Source: Actinospineispora spinosispora DSM 44797 (GTDB lineage Bacteria > Actinomycetota > Actinomycetes > Mycobacteriales > Pseudonocardiaceae). Taken from it: a DNA stretch of 64,000 nucleotides. Positions within the stretch are counted from its first letter, which is position 1. Each line of letters begins with the position of its first letter. This document shows positions 1 to 19,005 of the stretch, one piece after another. The notes under the pieces are model-generated. The model did not search any database. It was not told where the DNA came from and saw only the letters and a list, made by a program, of their open reading frames with translations. The stretch is taken from NCBI RefSeq assembly GCF_000429025.1, contig NZ_KE386834.1:770891-834890 (forward strand), read 5' to 3'. Made by a program: the position numbers and the translations under genes.

Positions 1-58
1 CGTGACGCTGGGCCAGGGACTCGGTCTGCTCGGCATCGAGACGCCAGAGCGGATGTGA
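1..58 (+). CDS. 3' end of an unidentified gene (partial)
   Basis: Only the last 18 codons are inside the window, read from base 2 and ending with the TGA at 56-58. The visible tail reads VTLGQGLGLLGIETPERM, which I cannot assign to a family. Its stop overlaps the GTG start of the next gene (ATGTGAGC), so the two were probably co-transcribed and translationally coupled. Confidence 0.6.
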   Translation, partial: VTLGQGLGLLGIETPERM

Positions 59-837
59 GCGGCGGTCCGGCGCCCGACTGGGCCGCACTGCGCCGGGTAC
101 TCGCCGAGACCGACGAGTACCTGGTGCTGGACAAGCCCGCCGGCATCTCGGTCACCGGGGAGCGGCACGACACCGACCTGGTGCGCATCGCGCGGGACGC
201 GGGTGAGGAGCTGATCCCGGTGCACCGCATCGACAAGGTCACCTCCGGTGTGGTGCTGCTGGCCAGGACGAAGGCCGCGCACGGACCGCTCACCCGCCAG
301 TTCGCCAAACGGACCGTCGACAAGTCCTACCTGGTGATCACCCGCTCGACGGGGCTGCCCACCGAGGCGACGGTCGAGCTGCCGCTCGGTGTCGGCCGTA
401 AGAACCGGGTGCGGGTGGCGGCCCCCCGGGAGGACATCGCGTTCGACACGGTCGCTTCGCAGTGGTCGGTGCCGGAGTCCTCGGTGAGTGAGCCCAGCTA
501 TCCGTCGTCGACCGCGATCGGTCGTCTGTGGGAAGGCTCCGCGCACAGCCTGCTGCGGGCGCGTCCGCACACCGGGCGCCGCCACCAGATCCGGGTGCAC
601 CTGGCCTGGATCGGCCACCCGATCGCCGGGGACCCGCTGTTCCCGGTACGAGCCGGTGAGCCCGCCGACGGTGCGGTCCGCACGTGCCTGCACGCCTGGC
701 GGCTGGCGTTCGACGACGCGTCCGGCCGCCGCGTCGAGGCCGAAGCGAGCCCGGACGAGGACTTCTGGGCACCGATCGCCGCCGAGCTGCCACCCGACAC
801 CCGAACCAGGCTCCTGCACCGCGAGCCGGTGTGCTGA
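55..837 (+). CDS. RluA-family RNA pseudouridine synthase
   Basis: This enzyme isomerises uridine to pseudouridine in rRNA or tRNA in the cytoplasm. The 260-residue protein carries the RluA-family catalytic loop HRIDKVTSG with the nucleophilic Asp near residue 60. The C-terminal family motif GRRHQIRVHLAWIGHPIAGD lies near residues 175-197. There is no N-terminal S4 domain, as in the shorter RluA/TruC-type members. The GTG start overlaps the upstream stop by four bases. The target site cannot be read from sequence. The region between about residues 150 and 165 (Ser-rich) looks like an unstructured insertion. Confidence 0.88.
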   Translation: MSGGPAPDWAALRRVLAETDEYLVLDKPAGISVTGERHDTDLVRIARDAGEELIPVHRIDKVTSGVVLLARTKAAHGPLTRQFAKRTVDKSYLVITRSTGLPTEATVELPLGVGRKNRVRVAAPREDIAFDTVASQWSVPESSVSEPSYPSSTAIGRLWEGSAHSLLRARPHTGRRHQIRVHLAWIGHPIAGDPLFPVRAGEPADGAVRTCLHAWRLAFDDASGRRVEAEASPDEDFWAPIAAELPPDTRTRLLHREPVC

Positions 838-842
838 AAACC

Positions 843-1027
843 CCGACTCGGTGTGCCCAGACGTCCGACTCGGTGTGCCCAGGCGCCCGACTCGCGGTGT
901 CCAGGCGCCCGACTCGCGGTGCTGAGACGCCCGACTCGCGGGTGGGGCGTGCACGTCCGAGCGAGTCGGGCGCGTGAGCACCGCGAGTCGGGGTCTTCGG
1001 CACATCGAGTCGGGGTTGTGAGCACAC
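843..1027. repeat. 22-bp repeat array: five direct then three inverted units
   Basis: CCGACTCG recurs at 843, 865, 887, 909 and 931, exactly every 22 bases. Its reverse complement CGAGTCGG then recurs at 962, 984 and 1006, again every 22 bases. The rest of each unit is imperfectly conserved (for example CGGTGTCCAGGCGC after the core). The array fills the gap between the pseudouridine synthase and the PucR gene. As the left part is complementary to the right part, a transcript could fold into a long stem. There are no spacers, so it is not CRISPR. ORFs that run through it are low-complexity artefacts. Confidence 0.85.
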
Positions 1028-1054
1028 CCTTACGGGAGTATCTACAGTGATCTG

Positions 1055-2206
1055 ATGGCGACGGCGCCCGAGCGGTCCTGGCACGAGCTGCTCGACGTGC
1101 TGCTCGAACAACAAGCCGCGCTCACCGCCGAGATCCGCTCGTCCATGCAGGAACGGCTCTCGTCCTACCACGAGCTGGACGCCGAGCAGTTCGAGCGGCA
1201 CGTCGCCATGGCGGTGGACACGACGATCCGGCTCGCCGCGGTGACGCCACCCCGGCTCAGCGAATGGCAGACCCAGGTGCTGGAGCAGGTCGGCGAGGCG
1301 CAGGCCGGGCTCGGTGTCCCGGTCGAGGCGATGCTGCTGGCCTGGCGGATCGGCGCGGACATCCTGATGGAGCGGGGTAGCGAGCTCGCGGCGAAGCTCG
1401 GCATCGACGACCGCGAGCTACTCGCGTTCGTCAGGGGCGCGCTGGCGTCGTCGGACGTCGGCATGATCACCACTGCCCGCGCGCACCGGCGGGCCGAGCT
1501 GGAGCGCGACCGCGAAGCGCAGGACCGGCGCGCGTCGTTCGTCCGCGCGGTCCTGTTCGGGACCGGCGAGCCGAGCGAGCTGCGGGCTCGCGCCAAGTCC
1601 TACGGTCTGGACCCGACCCGGCGGTACCGCGCCGTCCGGGTCCGCACCGACGGGGAGGGCTCCTGGCAGCAGGCGGAGCGCGCGATCGGGCTGGCTTCGG
1701 CCGCGCGGGCAGGTGAGGGGATGAGCGTGCTGGTCGACGGTGACCTCGCGGGGTTCCTGGCGCGCGAGCCCGGCGACGTGGCCCCGGGACTGGCCGGCCT
1801 GGGTCCCGCCGTGCCGCTGGAGCGGCTGGCCGAGTCGTTCCGGTTGGCCACCCGCTCGTTGACCACGCTGCACGCCTTCGGCCTGACCGGCACACGGGAC
1901 CTGACCGCGCTCGGTCTGCGCGCGGCCGTGGTCGCCGACCAGGACGTCGGCGAGGCACTGCGCGATCGCTACCTGGCGCCGCTGGCCAGGTCCGGTTCCG
2001 GTCCGGAGATCATCACCACGCTGCGTGTGTACCTCGCAGCGGGCTCGCACGTCGAGACGGCCGCCGAGCAGCTGCACATCCACCCGAACACGCTGCGCTA
2101 CCGGCTGGCACGGTTCGAGGACCTGGCCGACGTTCGGTTGCGCGAGCCGCTGGTGGCGTTCGAGGTGTGGTGGGCGGTGGAGAGCGCGGCGATCGACGCC
2201 GGCTGA
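1055..2206 (+). CDS. PucR/CdaR-type helix-turn-helix regulator
   Basis: A 383-residue DNA-binding regulator. The C-terminal 60 residues hold the PucR HTH, recognisable as VETAAEQLHIHPNTLRYRLARFEDL. The N-terminal 160 residues are the alpha-helical sensor region usual in this family, and the middle is a GGDEF-like degenerate domain. The ATG is preceded at six bases by TACAGT (1043-1048), a good -10 element, so the transcript may be leaderless. Ligand and targets are unknown. The next gene, a desaturase-reductase fusion, has its own promoter-like sequence and a 7-bp inverted repeat in front, so it is a possible target. Confidence 0.85.
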   Translation: MATAPERSWHELLDVLLEQQAALTAEIRSSMQERLSSYHELDAEQFERHVAMAVDTTIRLAAVTPPRLSEWQTQVLEQVGEAQAGLGVPVEAMLLAWRIGADILMERGSELAAKLGIDDRELLAFVRGALASSDVGMITTARAHRRAELERDREAQDRRASFVRAVLFGTGEPSELRARAKSYGLDPTRRYRAVRVRTDGEGSWQQAERAIGLASAARAGEGMSVLVDGDLAGFLAREPGDVAPGLAGLGPAVPLERLAESFRLATRSLTTLHAFGLTGTRDLTALGLRAAVVADQDVGEALRDRYLAPLARSGSGPEIITTLRVYLAAGSHVETAAEQLHIHPNTLRYRLARFEDLADVRLREPLVAFEVWWAVESAAIDAG

Positions 2207-2226: not shown

Positions 2227-2291
2227 CCAGCCGTGGCTATCTCAGGGCCGACCACATGGTTTTTGTCGGGTGCTGGGCTCATTCTGTATGC

Positions 2292-4298
2292 ATGACCAGC
2301 GCCGCCGCAGTCGCACCCGGTTCCGCCACCACCGTCGGTCTGCCCGATCCGGGCGAACCGGTGCCCACGCTCGCCAAGCCGACGGTGGCGCTGTTCCTCG
2401 GCTGCCTCGCGGTGTTCGTGGTGACCGTCTGGGCCGCGTTGACCCAGGGACTGAGTCCGTGGGTGTACATGCCGGTGAACACCGCCGTCAGCTTCGCGAT
2501 GTTCACCGTGCTGCACGACGCGGTGCACTACTCGATCAGCCGCACGCGCTGGGTGAACGCGCTGCTCGGCAGGCTCACCGTGCCGTTCGTGGTGCCGTAC
2601 GCCTCCGCGCCGCTGTTCGGGTTCATCCACATCGAGCACCACCGCAACACCAACGAGGACCTCGACGCCGACCCGGACGCCTGGGCAACCGACGGACCCT
2701 GGTGGCAGCTGCCGCTGCGCTGGCTGACGATCGACGGCTGGTACGCGGCGTTCTACCTCAAGCACATCCGCAGGCGCTCGCCGCGTGAGCTGACCGAGAC
2801 CGCCGCCATCGTGCTGCTGTTCATCGGCCTGATCACCCTCGCCGCGATGACCGGCCACCTGCTGACCGTCGCGCTGATCTACCTGATCCCGTCGCGCATC
2901 GCGCTCGGCATGCTCGCCTGGTGGTTCGACTGGCTGCCCCATCACGGCCTGGAGGTCACCCAGCGGGAGAACCGCTACCGCGCCACCCGCATCCGGATCG
3001 GCATGGAATGGCTGCTCACGCCCGCGCTGCTCTACCAGAACTACCACCTGGTGCACCATCTGCACCCGTCCATCCCGTTCTACCGCTACATCAAGGCCTG
3101 GAAGCGCAACGAGGAGGCCTACCTGCAGCGCGACGCCGCGATCATGACCGCGTTCGGCCGGGACCTGACCGTCGAGGAGTACCGGGTCTGGCGTGAGCTG
3201 GACTCGACGCTCGCCCGCATGCGCCCGGTCGAGGTGCCCGCCGGTTCGAGCGCGAGCCACGCCGAGTTCCACCGACTGCCGGTCGCGGCGCTGGACCGGC
3301 CGACCTCGGACAGCGTTGCGATCACCTTCGCCGTGCCGGACGAGCTGGCCGAGCGGTTCCGCTTCGAGCCGGGACAGCACGTCACGGTGCGCACCGACCT
3401 CGGCGGCTCGGGCGTCCGGCGGAACTACTCGATCTGCTCACCGGCCGGCACCGGCGTGCTGCGGATCGCGGTGAAGCGCATCCCGGACGGGGTGTTCTCC
3501 AGCTATGTGTCCGAGCAGCTCGCGGTGGGGGACGAACTGGAGCTGATGACCCCCACGGGCCGGTTCGGCCCCTCGCTCGACCCGACCGCGCGCAAGCACT
3601 ACGTGGCGATCGCGGCCGGCAGCGGTATCACCCCGATCCTGTCCATCGTCGCCACCGCACTGGAGGTCGAGTCGGACAGCCGCTGCACGCTGCTCTACGG
3701 CAACCGCACCCGCACGTCCACGATGTTCCGCGCCGAGCTGGCCGACCTGGAGGCTCGGTTCGCCGACCGGCTGGAGATCGTGCACGTGCTGTCCGGTGAG
3801 CGCGGTGCCAGCGCTTACCACGGCCGGATCGACGCGGACCTGCTGTCCGCGGTCTTCGCCGACCAGCTGCCGCCCCAGGGCGTGGACGACTGGTTCCTGT
3901 GCGGACCCGCCGGGATGGTCGAGACGGCGCGCGACACCCTGGCCGACCGGGGCGTGCCGACCGACCGGGTGCACGTGGAGCTGTTCCACGTACCGACTGC
4001 CGAACCGACCACCACGGGCGTCGCCAGCACGGTCACGGTGCGCCTGGACGGCACCGAGGACGTCGTGGCGGTCGAGGCCGGTCAGTCGATCCTGGACGGA
4101 GCGCTGAGCGTGCGCAGCGACGCCCCGTACGCCTGCATGGGCGGCGCGTGCGGTACCTGCCGGGCGAAGCTGGTCACGGGCACGGTCGAGATGGACCACA
4201 ACTACGCACTCGGCCAGTCCGACCTGGACGCCGGCTACATCCTCACCTGCCAGTCCCAGCCCACGACCCCAGAGGTCACGGTCGACTACGACATCTGA
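2292..4298 (+). CDS. Membrane fatty-acid desaturase/hydroxylase fused to FAD- and 2Fe-2S-containing reductase
   Basis: A predicted self-sufficient membrane oxygenase or desaturase. Residues 1 to about 300 form a membrane di-iron domain with three His boxes: HDAVH (about 75), HIEHH (about 113) and HLVHH (about 252), plus hydrophobic segments. Residues about 335-560 form a ferredoxin-reductase module with the FAD motif RRNYS and the NAD(P)-binding GSGITPI. The last 90 residues form a plant-type 2Fe-2S ferredoxin with CMGGACGTC and a distal Cys in LTCQSQ. The reductase half resembles PaaE/HmpX-type enzymes. The start at 2292 is chosen because CATTCT sits six bases before this ATG; an in-frame ATG at 2256 is the alternative. 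The substrate is not readable; a fatty acyl chain or carotenoid is likely. Confidence 0.85.
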   Translation: MTSAAAVAPGSATTVGLPDPGEPVPTLAKPTVALFLGCLAVFVVTVWAALTQGLSPWVYMPVNTAVSFAMFTVLHDAVHYSISRTRWVNALLGRLTVPFVVPYASAPLFGFIHIEHHRNTNEDLDADPDAWATDGPWWQLPLRWLTIDGWYAAFYLKHIRRRSPRELTETAAIVLLFIGLITLAAMTGHLLTVALIYLIPSRIALGMLAWWFDWLPHHGLEVTQRENRYRATRIRIGMEWLLTPALLYQNYHLVHHLHPSIPFYRYIKAWKRNEEAYLQRDAAIMTAFGRDLTVEEYRVWRELDSTLARMRPVEVPAGSSASHAEFHRLPVAALDRPTSDSVAITFAVPDELAERFRFEPGQHVTVRTDLGGSGVRRNYSICSPAGTGVLRIAVKRIPDGVFSSYVSEQLAVGDELELMTPTGRFGPSLDPTARKHYVAIAAGSGITPILSIVATALEVESDSRCTLLYGNRTRTSTMFRAELADLEARFADRLEIVHVLSGERGASAYHGRIDADLLSAVFADQLPPQGVDDWFLCGPAGMVETARDTLADRGVPTDRVHVELFHVPTAEPTTTGVASTVTVRLDGTEDVVAVEAGQSILDGALSVRSDAPYACMGGACGTCRAKLVTGTVEMDHNYALGQSDLDAGYILTCQSQPTTPEVTVDYDI

Positions 4299-4358: not shown

Positions 4359-6482
4359 CTACTTCTGGAGTGGGTCGCGGGGCAGACCCAGGATGCGTTC
4401 GGCTATCTGGTTGCGGACGATCTCGGAGGTTCCGCCCGCGATCGTCAGGCAGCGGGAGATCAGGTAGCTCCAGGTCGCCTGCTCCGCCTTGCCGGTGATC
4501 GCGGCGGTGCCGGCCAGCCTGCGGGCCAGGTCGGCCACGCGCTGGTCGTGCTCGGCGGACAGCAGCTTGGCCAGGTTGCCCTCCGGGCCGGGGCCGGCCC
4601 CGCTCACCGCGCGGGCGGCCTGACGGACGCCGAGCAGCTGTTTCGCCTGGTGCTCGGCGAGCAGCTCGGCCAGCTCCGGCTCGTAGCGCGCCCGTCGGGG
4701 GTGCTGCTTGACCGGGTCGATCAGGTCGGTCGCGCCGAGGCCGATCAGACTGGCCCCGCCTCCGATGGAGACCCGCTCGTTGCCCAGGGTCGCCCTGGCC
4801 ACCGCCCAGCCCTGGCCGACCGTCCCGACGACGTCCTCATCGGGAACGAAGACGTCGTCGAAGAACACCTCGTTGAACAGGGTCGCGCCGGTCAGCTCGC
4901 GCAGCGGACGCACCTCGACGCCCCGCGCGGACAGGTCGATCGCCATCATCGTGACGCCGGAGTGCTTCGAACCCGACGAGTCGGTCCGCACCGTGGCGAA
5001 GCCCCACTTACTGAACTGGGCACCCGAGGTCCACACCTTCTGGCCGGTCACCCGCCAGCCGCCCTCATCACGCACACCCCGGGTGGAGATCGCGGCGGCG
5101 TCCGAACCGGCGCCCGGTTCGCTGAACAGCTGACACCAGATCGTCGTGCCGGTGAGCGCGTCGGCGATCCAACGCTGGGCCTGCTCGGGCGTTCCGTGCT
5201 GGGCGATGGTGAGCGCGACCCACCCGGTGATGCCCAGGCTCGGGGTCTTGATCCCGGCGAACTCCTCCTCGATGACCAGCTGCTCGACCGCGTCGGCGTC
5301 CCGGCCCCACGGCGGGGGCCAGTGCGGCACCAGGTAGCCGGACGACACCAGCTCGGCGCGCCGCTCGGTCTTCGACAGCTCACGCAACCGGGTGGCCACC
5401 GCACGCGCCTGCTCGCGGTACTGCTCGGCGTGCTCGGGCAGGTCCAGCGTCGCGCGCCTGCGGGTACCGGCGGAGGCCAGCCGCAGGAGGTCCGCGCCCG
5501 GCTCACCCGCCGCGTCCAGCAGCGCCGACGCGGCGAGCGCGCGGCGCAGGTACAGGTGCGCGTCGTGCTCCCACGTGTAGCCGATGCCACCGTGCAGCTG
5601 GATGTTCATCTCGGCCGCCCGCACCGCGCCCGCGATCGCCCGCACATCCGCGACGGCGGCGGCCAGCTCGGCCTCCTCGGGCGTCCCGTCGCCGGGCGCG
5701 CGCGCCGCGTCCCATGCGGCGGCCACCGCCAGCTCCGCATCCACCGCCATGTTCGCGCAGTGGTGTTTCACGGCCTGGAAGGTCCCGATGGTGCGGCCGA
5801 ACTGTTCGCGCTGCTGTACGTACGCGACGGCGGCGTCCAGGCAGGCGTACGCCGAGCCGGCGGCCTCGGCCGAGAAGAGTGTCCGGGCGAGCCGCAGCGC
5901 CACGCGGCGTCCGCCGACGACCCGCTCCAGCTCCCGCGTCGCGCTGGTGCGCAGGTAGGCGACCCGTCGGGTGGGATCCATCCCGGCGACCGGGTCGACG
6001 TCGACCGTGCCGACGTCCAGTACGAGTAGGTCGTCGCCCTCGGGAACCAGCGCCAGATCGGCGAGACCGCCACCGAGCACCAGCCAGCCGCGGTCGGGAT
6101 CGGCGTCGGCCAGGCCGACCGCGCCGATGCGGGCGCCGCGCGCCAGATCGGGCAGCAGCGTCTCGCACTGTGCGGGTGTTCCCGCCTCCGCGAGCACCGC
6201 GGCGGCCAGCACCGTCGGCAGGAAAGGCCCCGGCGCGACCGCGCGACCGATCTCGCCGAGCACCACCGCCAGCTCCGGGAGCCCGTACCCCTCGCCGCCG
6301 TACCGTTCGGGGAGATGCAGGCCGAGCCAGCCCAGCGTGGTCAGCGCGGGCCAGAAGCCGGGCAGCGTCTCCTTCTCGGCATCGAGCAGCGAACGGGCCG
6401 CGCCCCTGGCGTCCTGCTCGGTCAGGAACCGGCGGGCGACCTGGGCCAGCTCGCGGTGATCGTCCGTGATCGCCAGAGTCAT
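4359..6482 (-). CDS. Two-domain acyl-CoA dehydrogenase (FadE6/FadE34-like)
   Basis: FAD-dependent acyl-CoA dehydrogenase that would introduce the alpha-beta double bond in an acyl-CoA during beta-oxidation. The 707-residue product is two fused acyl-CoA dehydrogenase units, each roughly 350 residues. Each has an N-terminal helical part, a beta domain and a C-terminal helical part. The C-terminus has the family signature GGTSEIVRNQIAERILGLPR. Mycobacterial FadE6, FadE22 and FadE34 share this length and architecture. FadE34 acts on a steroid side chain, so a bulky substrate is possible. The start at 6482 (MTLAITDDHRELAQ) is preferred to an ATG 14 codons upstream, because similarity to the family begins there. 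Confidence 0.88.
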   Translation of the reverse strand: MTLAITDDHRELAQVARRFLTEQDARGAARSLLDAEKETLPGFWPALTTLGWLGLHLPERYGGEGYGLPELAVVLGEIGRAVAPGPFLPTVLAAAVLAEAGTPAQCETLLPDLARGARIGAVGLADADPDRGWLVLGGGLADLALVPEGDDLLVLDVGTVDVDPVAGMDPTRRVAYLRTSATRELERVVGGRRVALRLARTLFSAEAAGSAYACLDAAVAYVQQREQFGRTIGTFQAVKHHCANMAVDAELAVAAAWDAARAPGDGTPEEAELAAAVADVRAIAGAVRAAEMNIQLHGGIGYTWEHDAHLYLRRALAASALLDAAGEPGADLLRLASAGTRRRATLDLPEHAEQYREQARAVATRLRELSKTERRAELVSSGYLVPHWPPPWGRDADAVEQLVIEEEFAGIKTPSLGITGWVALTIAQHGTPEQAQRWIADALTGTTIWCQLFSEPGAGSDAAAISTRGVRDEGGWRVTGQKVWTSGAQFSKWGFATVRTDSSGSKHSGVTMMAIDLSARGVEVRPLRELTGATLFNEVFFDDVFVPDEDVVGTVGQGWAVARATLGNERVSIGGGASLIGLGATDLIDPVKQHPRRARYEPELAELLAEHQAKQLLGVRQAARAVSGAGPGPEGNLAKLLSAEHDQRVADLARRLAGTAAITGKAEQATWSYLISRCLTIAGGTSEIVRNQIAERILGLPRDPLQK

Positions 6483-6621
6483 GCACCTATCCCTACTCCT
6501 CAGTAGCGGTGTGCGCCAGCCCACCCGGGTGGCCGCACTGTGGCGCGTTGCACAACTCTGTGTGCGATCCGCTCACCACGATGACTGTTGCCGGCCATCT
6601 CCGCGTGGCTCACTGGAAGGT

Positions 6622-18933: not shown

Positions 18934-19005
18934 GGGCGCATAGCTCAGCGGGAGAGCACTCGGTTTACACCCGAGCGGTCGCAGGTTCGAATCCTGCTGC
19001 GCCCA
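18934..19005 (+). tRNA. tRNA-Val(TAC)
   Basis: The acceptor arms GGGCGCA (18934-18940) and TGCGCCC (18998-19004) pair, with discriminator A at 19005. The D loop contains AGCTCAGCGGGAGAGC. The anticodon stem CTCGG/CCGAG encloses the loop TTTACAC with anticodon TAC. The T arm is GCAGG-TTCGAAT-CCTGC. CCA is not encoded. It decodes GUA/GUG valine codons. Confidence 0.97.

Follow-up and report, generated by a model that had tools for sequence, protein, structure and literature searches.

A dispersed, REP/BIME-like family of 22-bp repeats at gene ends that probably forms phased binding arrays for a putative protein

Introduction

Just past the stop codon of an RluA-type gene, a short word recurs at a constant 22-bp step and then continues on the opposite strand, which raises the question of what kind of element such an array represents and whether it would act as DNA or as RNA. 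The window, defined here as the whole stretch of 64,000 nucleotides that was analyzed, had been given an initial annotation in which the array was either a phased protein-binding site or a processed RNA stem rather than a set of random repeats. The reading preferred below, at a rough probability of 45%, is that the window array belongs to a dispersed, gene-end-associated repeat family whose members are phased arrays for a candidate sequence-specific DNA-binding protein. Among the papers listed in literature searches, no prior description of 22-bp gene-end arrays was found, which does not establish their absence from print.

Architecture of the Window Array

The array separates two co-directional genes (Table 1), with 5 bp between the stop codon of the RluA-type gene and the first CCGACTCG and 41 bp between the last core and the PucR-type gene; according to Pfam searches on the neighbors, it is not adjacent to a replication gene. 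All eight motif positions of the initial annotation are correct, and the exact 22-bp steps hold inside each of the two runs. The inversion that it described as central is off-centre, with five + units, three - units and 30 bp between the two cores that face each other across the flip. Rfam 15, run on the whole window, yields no gathering-score match at the array, its sole match being a tRNA at 18934–19005. Downstream, a single ORF on the + strand (2256–4298) encodes a fatty acid desaturase domain together with reductase domains that bind FAD, NAD, and 2Fe-2S (PF00487, PF00970, PF00175, and PF00111), and a 721-aa ORF on the - strand (4359–6524) resembles by eye two acyl-CoA dehydrogenases in one frame.

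Table 1. Coordinates of the array and its flanking genes in the window.
Feature	Position	Strand	Basis
Upstream gene, RluA-type RNA pseudouridylate synthase	55..837	+	ORF; Pfam PF00849, E 4.3e-29
Five + units, CCGACTCG core and 14-nt spacer; cores start at 843, 865, 887, 909, 931	843..938	+	sequence
Junction of + run and - run; core-to-core 30 bp	939..961	.	core positions
Three - units, CGAGTCGG; cores start at 962, 984, 1006	962..1013	-	sequence
Downstream gene, PucR-type regulator (HTH_30)	1055..2206	+	ORF; Pfam PF13556, E 2.5e-18

Copy Number and the 22-bp Period

Across the whole window genome, the two-unit pattern CCGACTCG-N14-CCGACTCG occurs at 72 forward and 99 reverse places (as opposed to none in either direction for the reversed control), which confirms that these are not chance repeats. 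A BLAST search of this genome with the array returned 133 matches, and 40 of 161 first-look candidates were scored. With the gap left free (CGACTCG-N3..33-CGACTCG), 156 + 160 places were found vs 21 + 13 for the control, and 81 of the first 100 in the list lie at exactly 22 bp by hand count. Of 40 stretches taken from the window genome, 39 hold arrays, the remaining one (L048, no neighboring cores) being excluded, and 139 of the 141 same-orientation core distances of 10–33 bp in the window-genome loci equal exactly 22. Random genome-wide spacing was looked for as counter-evidence, and 22 bp was found to dominate instead.

The period is likewise kept in relatives searched with the free gap, where hand counts place 29/30 (G083), 50/52 (G012), and 11/13 (G019) spacings at 22. 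In Amycolatopsis acididurans (G330), 47 of 54 listed places are at 22 and six at 20, 21, 23, or 24, which shows that spacing is looser in this genome than in Pseudonocardia. Among the matches listed for other congeners, hand counts give 6/10 (G005), 7/11 (G021), 3/5 (G009), and 3/5 (G074). Other periods among the matches listed in 26 mostly array-poor congeners are local or coding-like; the non-22 periods listed are a 24-bp tandem in G014, a 15-bp tandem and a 21-bp pair in G004, and an 18-bp pair in G080. Two genomes (G002 and G065) share an identical 35-nt word with a CCGACTCG core at each end, the two cores being 27 bp apart, at many places in the former and three in the latter, which is perhaps a piece of a mobile gene. 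Over all 242 runs, which were seeded on 22-bp pairs, spacings are 22 in 702 of 712 cases, 44 in six, and 20, 21, or 23 in four; since most GTDB and G071 loci were retrieved with the 22-bp pattern, the period in those loci arises partly by selection.

Distribution Among Genomes

Within the window's genus, 20 of the 36 genomes sampled carry the two-unit pattern, the window genome counted; in the rest of the order, 0 of 24 do. A family sample contains it in 19 of 297 genomes, corresponding to 11/25 within and 8/272 outside the genus. Among the eight outside carriers, G330 alone is rich (29 + 18); G111 contains two places and the other six a single one each, about the control level, with single control matches occurring in several genomes. 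The place C79:173423 of G330 and the A. acididurans locus L166 are one and the same array. Of 396 genomes in a phylum sample, one has the three-unit pattern, namely the window genome, which is the only member of its genus in that sample. A named scan yielded, among the matches listed, Pseudonocardia, some Nocardioides, A. acididurans, and two MAGs. The mention of "Amycolatopsis-type" genomes in the initial annotation is imprecise: the window's genus is Pseudonocardia, and A. acididurans is the sole Amycolatopsis among the matches listed.

The two MAG matches, from Myxococcales (L157, 11-bp steps) and Acidobacteria (L178, a perfect 22-bp tandem), look like chance; they are counted in the gene-pair-class tallies of GTDB loci given below and were excluded from the nearest-boundary, enrichment, spacing, core, flip, and ortholog tests. 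On contig C1 of the congener G071, no two-unit match lies between 3.94 and 5.92 Mb, a gap of ~2 Mb in a contig of 7.18 Mb that otherwise has the pattern.

Conserved Cores, Variable Spacers, and Turnover

The core, (C)CGACTCG, is near-palindromic. Core, spacing, ortholog, and flip-junction sets were taken from 175 loci, comprising 39 from the window genome, 20 from G071, and 116 of 118 from GTDB. Triplets were scored wherever two exact cores stand 44 bp from each other: in the window genome, 73 of 74 have an unaltered middle core, and their spacers are mismatched at 296 of 1110 positions (27%). The respective values are 41/44 and 162/660 in G071, and 286/300 and 866/4500 in the GTDB loci. Across 460 adjacent spacer pairs (242 runs), ~1282 differences compare with few length changes. 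Spacers are largely species-specific, orthologous sites included, and the consensus spacers of 16 species amount to 15 different sequences. Because a 22-bp step and an exact core were required of the units behind these species consensuses, length and core were given beforehand; the consensuses display a purine tendency at positions -6 and -5 upstream of the core. The unit consensus is a 22-bp direct repeat containing no 20–40 bp palindrome and, on visual inspection of that consensus alone, no GTAG or CGTC tag.

Further comparison revealed considerable turnover. At 14 other RluA-homologue loci (33–72% protein identity), only two of which belong to genomes known as array-rich (G011 and G079), the 320 bp past the stop codon contain no array, and two loci have one isolated core; arrays therefore come and go. 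As the pattern is also absent in 16 of the 36 genus genomes, no single site is essential. Flanking genes were also compared across species: of 86 ortholog-like pairs, 25 have an array after both members, 8 after one, and 53 after neither, a split that represents no rate because the loci were chosen for arrays and the pairs are not independent. Orthologous arrays have conserved edges and species-specific spacers, their unit numbers vary (3, 4, and 9 in one set), their orientation pattern sometimes differs, and a 20- or 21-bp step occurs occasionally (L184, L201, and L241).

Such patchiness and varying unit numbers would also be expected of a non-functional or selfish tandem repeat spread by slippage, unequal exchange, and gene conversion, for which gene ends are merely tolerated insertion places. 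The looser spacing in G330 fits this explanation, as does the likeness of spacers, which is 0.81 between adjacent units, 0.78 between non-adjacent units of one run, and 0.68 between runs. However, the core is almost unchanged amid variable spacers, the 22-bp period emerges from free-gap searches in two genera, and length changes are few relative to spacer differences, so that a selfish origin is regarded as quite improbable.

Association With Gene Ends

Genes were called with a codon-usage caller and no annotation, and arrays inside called ORFs (4 in the window genome, 1 elsewhere) were left unplaced. The remaining window-genome arrays lie between 20 convergent, 21 tandem, and 1 divergent gene pairs, and those of 80 GTDB loci between 26 convergent, 44 tandem, and 6 divergent pairs. 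Divergent regions are depleted both in the window genome (1/42 arrays vs 46/152 regions, p 6e-5) and in the GTDB loci (6/76 vs 99/358, p 1e-4), and convergent regions are enriched with odds of 2.6 (p 0.008) and 2.9 (p 3e-4), respectively. The closest gene boundary within 300 bp was assessed for the window genome, G071, and 48 labelled Pseudonocardia plus 11 Nocardioides GTDB loci. It is a 3' end in 50/58 window-genome runs, 23/28 G071 runs, 55/64 runs of other Pseudonocardia, and 9/11 Nocardioides runs (137/161 when pooled), at median distances of 9–22 bp. Such placement hints at a role as a boundary, in supercoiling, or in read-through.

Relative to the closest gene, units are oriented oppositely in 87 cases and equally in 50, with G071 (19:4) alone significant by itself. 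In the 25 clusters listed from 843 proteins, no flanking gene family recurs beside more than 3 arrays at a distance of up to 150 bp. The divergent array of the window genome, one of seven divergent arrays, is flanked by genes for an aldehyde dehydrogenase and a GAF-domain protein, which provide no lead to a binder. At two convergent loci of G071 (L228 and L229), arrays stand at both ends of ~340-bp gene-free stretches containing ACCGGTGTG-like inverted words.

Spacing at Orientation Flips

Core distances from + to - runs (n = 40) are mainly 20–22 and 28–34 bp, and those from - to + runs (n = 42) mainly 41–43, 50–53, 62–65, and 84–87 bp, the rest being scattered. After de-duplication by species, both types follow a 10.5–11 bp period, with R 0.58 for - to + flips (n = 37; a value reached by none of 20000 jittered sets) and R 0.58 for + to - flips (n = 28; p 1e-4). 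Tested at 22 bp, the same distances reach only R 0.28–0.29, below the value at 10.5–11 bp. The flip-distance periodicity fits placement on the same helix face, and degenerate units on a 22-bp lattice may contribute to it.

Predicted RNA Folding

Folding of arrays with at least three units revealed a marked dependence on orientation. Arrays with both orientations have strong predicted hairpins compared with shuffles (mean z -7.37, 52 folds), the window array reaching -137.8 kcal/mol (z -11.0), and can thus, as modeled, also form RNA hairpins. One-orientation arrays fold like shuffles on average (mean z -0.62, range -4.95 to 2.61; 28 folds, i.e., 14 arrays on both strands), and an RNA stem is therefore not a property common to the arrays. 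The likeness of mirrored + and - spacers (0.63, n = 9) does not exceed that between separate arrays (0.647), giving no sign of extended-stem coevolution. On these two grounds the "processed RNA stem" of the initial annotation is not supported as a common function.

Inverted core pairs are found in 38 of 60 congeners (49 in G010, 10 in G071, and 8 in G083 vs 1, 3, and 1 in the controls, and 5 vs 0 in G005), and hairpin termination is therefore plausible for a subset of arrays. Several congeners, e.g., G071, G083, and G005, contain compact CCGACTCGCGGG..CCCGCGAGTCGG hairpins. A compact same-core hairpin with A/T flanks at L043:5490-5530 resembles a bidirectional terminator.

An RNA-level 3'-end element, in which paired + and - units form terminator or mRNA-stabilizing hairpins, would explain these structures together with the strong folds of two-orientation arrays, and also why arrays sit directly past stop codons. 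It is nevertheless judged unlikely as a general account: one-orientation arrays stay unfolded on average, mirrored spacers are unmatched, a 22-bp tandem period is needless for a hairpin, and a scan for terminator-like sites, T run included, with loops of 3–8 nt only returned 0 in window positions 600–1300.

Discussion

A DNA-level reading is favored because a conserved core, a fixed step, a variable spacer, mixed orientation, and non-folding one-orientation arrays occur together. Of the two suggestions in the initial annotation, the "phased protein-binding site" is thus retained, which also agrees with the free-gap period across species and the 10.5–11 bp flips; the binder itself is a candidate that we infer. 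The arrays would then probably constitute a REP/BIME-like gene-end repeat family, each forming a phased binding array for a putative protein. Several observations speak against such binding arrays. Local duplication and homogenization (0.81 vs 0.68) alone preserve unit length, and 22 bp at 10.5 bp per turn over-rotates by ~34 degrees per unit. The looser steps of G330 and of some orthologous arrays, the absence of the pattern from many genus genomes and of the window array from the RluA-homologue loci, and the lack of a flanking gene family at more than 3 arrays among the clusters listed point in the same direction.

In the proposed mechanism, each core would be a site for the putative sequence-specific DNA-binding protein, which would load cooperatively along approximately one helix face, 22 bp being ~2.1 turns. 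Bound arrays might insulate or mark the ends of genes, whether as roadblocks to transcription, by managing supercoils where genes converge, or by organizing the nucleoid locally, roles for which E. coli BIMEs offer a comparison. Selection on spacing would hold arrays in register, with tandem duplication and gene conversion homogenizing them, and where + and - runs meet, a transcript hairpin may aid 3'-end formation. A bolder version is rather doubtful: an undescribed actinobacterial gene-end boundary system, in which the protein would polymerize on CGACTCG cores two helical turns apart, just past stop codons, and block read-through or absorb supercoils where genes converge, while core and period would stay fixed and concerted evolution would give each species its own spacer dialect. 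The arrays represent concrete bait for an actinobacterial gene-end or nucleoid protein.

Comparison With Known Systems

Plasmid iterons and phased operator arrays consist of direct repeats ~22 bp apart, in which a protein reads one helical face. Unlike plasmid iterons, the present arrays number dozens per chromosome, lie at gene ends, and occur in both orientations, and the window array is not flanked by a replication gene.

With paired uptake sequences that act as terminators, the arrays share a short word and inverted pairs. A conserved word in many copies per genome could in principle serve as a chromosome-polarity signal (KOPS- or Chi-like) or as a DNA-uptake sequence. Among the matches listed, those of G071, G011, and G033 were all on the plus strand; the full lists for G071 and G033 hold both strands, and replichore polarity was rejected. 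The main contig of G071 (7.18 Mb) carries 47 forward and 34 reverse places, intermixed. In uptake-sequence genomes (Neisseria and Pasteurellaceae), paired words are enriched tail-to-tail and pairs in the same orientation seldom lie within 10 nt (PMC1852404). Tandem same-orientation runs dominate here, however, which leaves a polarity or uptake signal the least credible of the explanations considered. A further difference is that the scan with loops of 3–8 nt returned no T-run terminator at the window array.

The closest resemblance is to REP, BIME, and REPIN elements, including GTAG- and CGTC-tagged REPs, which are likewise extragenic, near 3' ends, rare between divergent genes, and found as inverted pairs. 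In a published survey, REPs are dispersed and intergenic, mainly between unidirectional or convergent ORFs and often <20 bp from 3' ends, the tagged families being palindromes, mainly from Proteobacteria, with one super-family associated with RAYT transposases (PMC3733652). The same and a second source describe inverted REP dimers (PMC3733652; PMC3116915), and the latter reports evenly spaced tandem REP arrays in P. fluorescens with periods of 112 and 72 bp (PMC3116915).

This shared niche and the inverted pairs in many arrays would be compatible with REPIN/REP elements mobilized by a RAYT (Y1) transposase, and a mobilizer other than Y1 is conceivable. PF01797, the Y1/RAYT transposase domain, is absent from the window genome, for which Y1/RAYT mobilization was thus ruled out, and present in 5 of 60 congeners (G003, G008, G014, G019, and G021), only two of which have arrays (G019, 11 places; G021, 7); the explanation as a whole is accordingly regarded as very improbable. 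The present family further differs in its unit, a 22-bp head-to-tail repeat with a 7–8 nt core as opposed to a 20–40 bp palindrome, in its period of 22 bp as opposed to the 112 and 72 bp reported for P. fluorescens, and in that some arrays have one orientation and do not fold. A 22-bp direct-repeat ruler with species-differing spacers, lacking a Y1 transposase in the window genome, thereby parts "gene-end repeat" from "hairpin".
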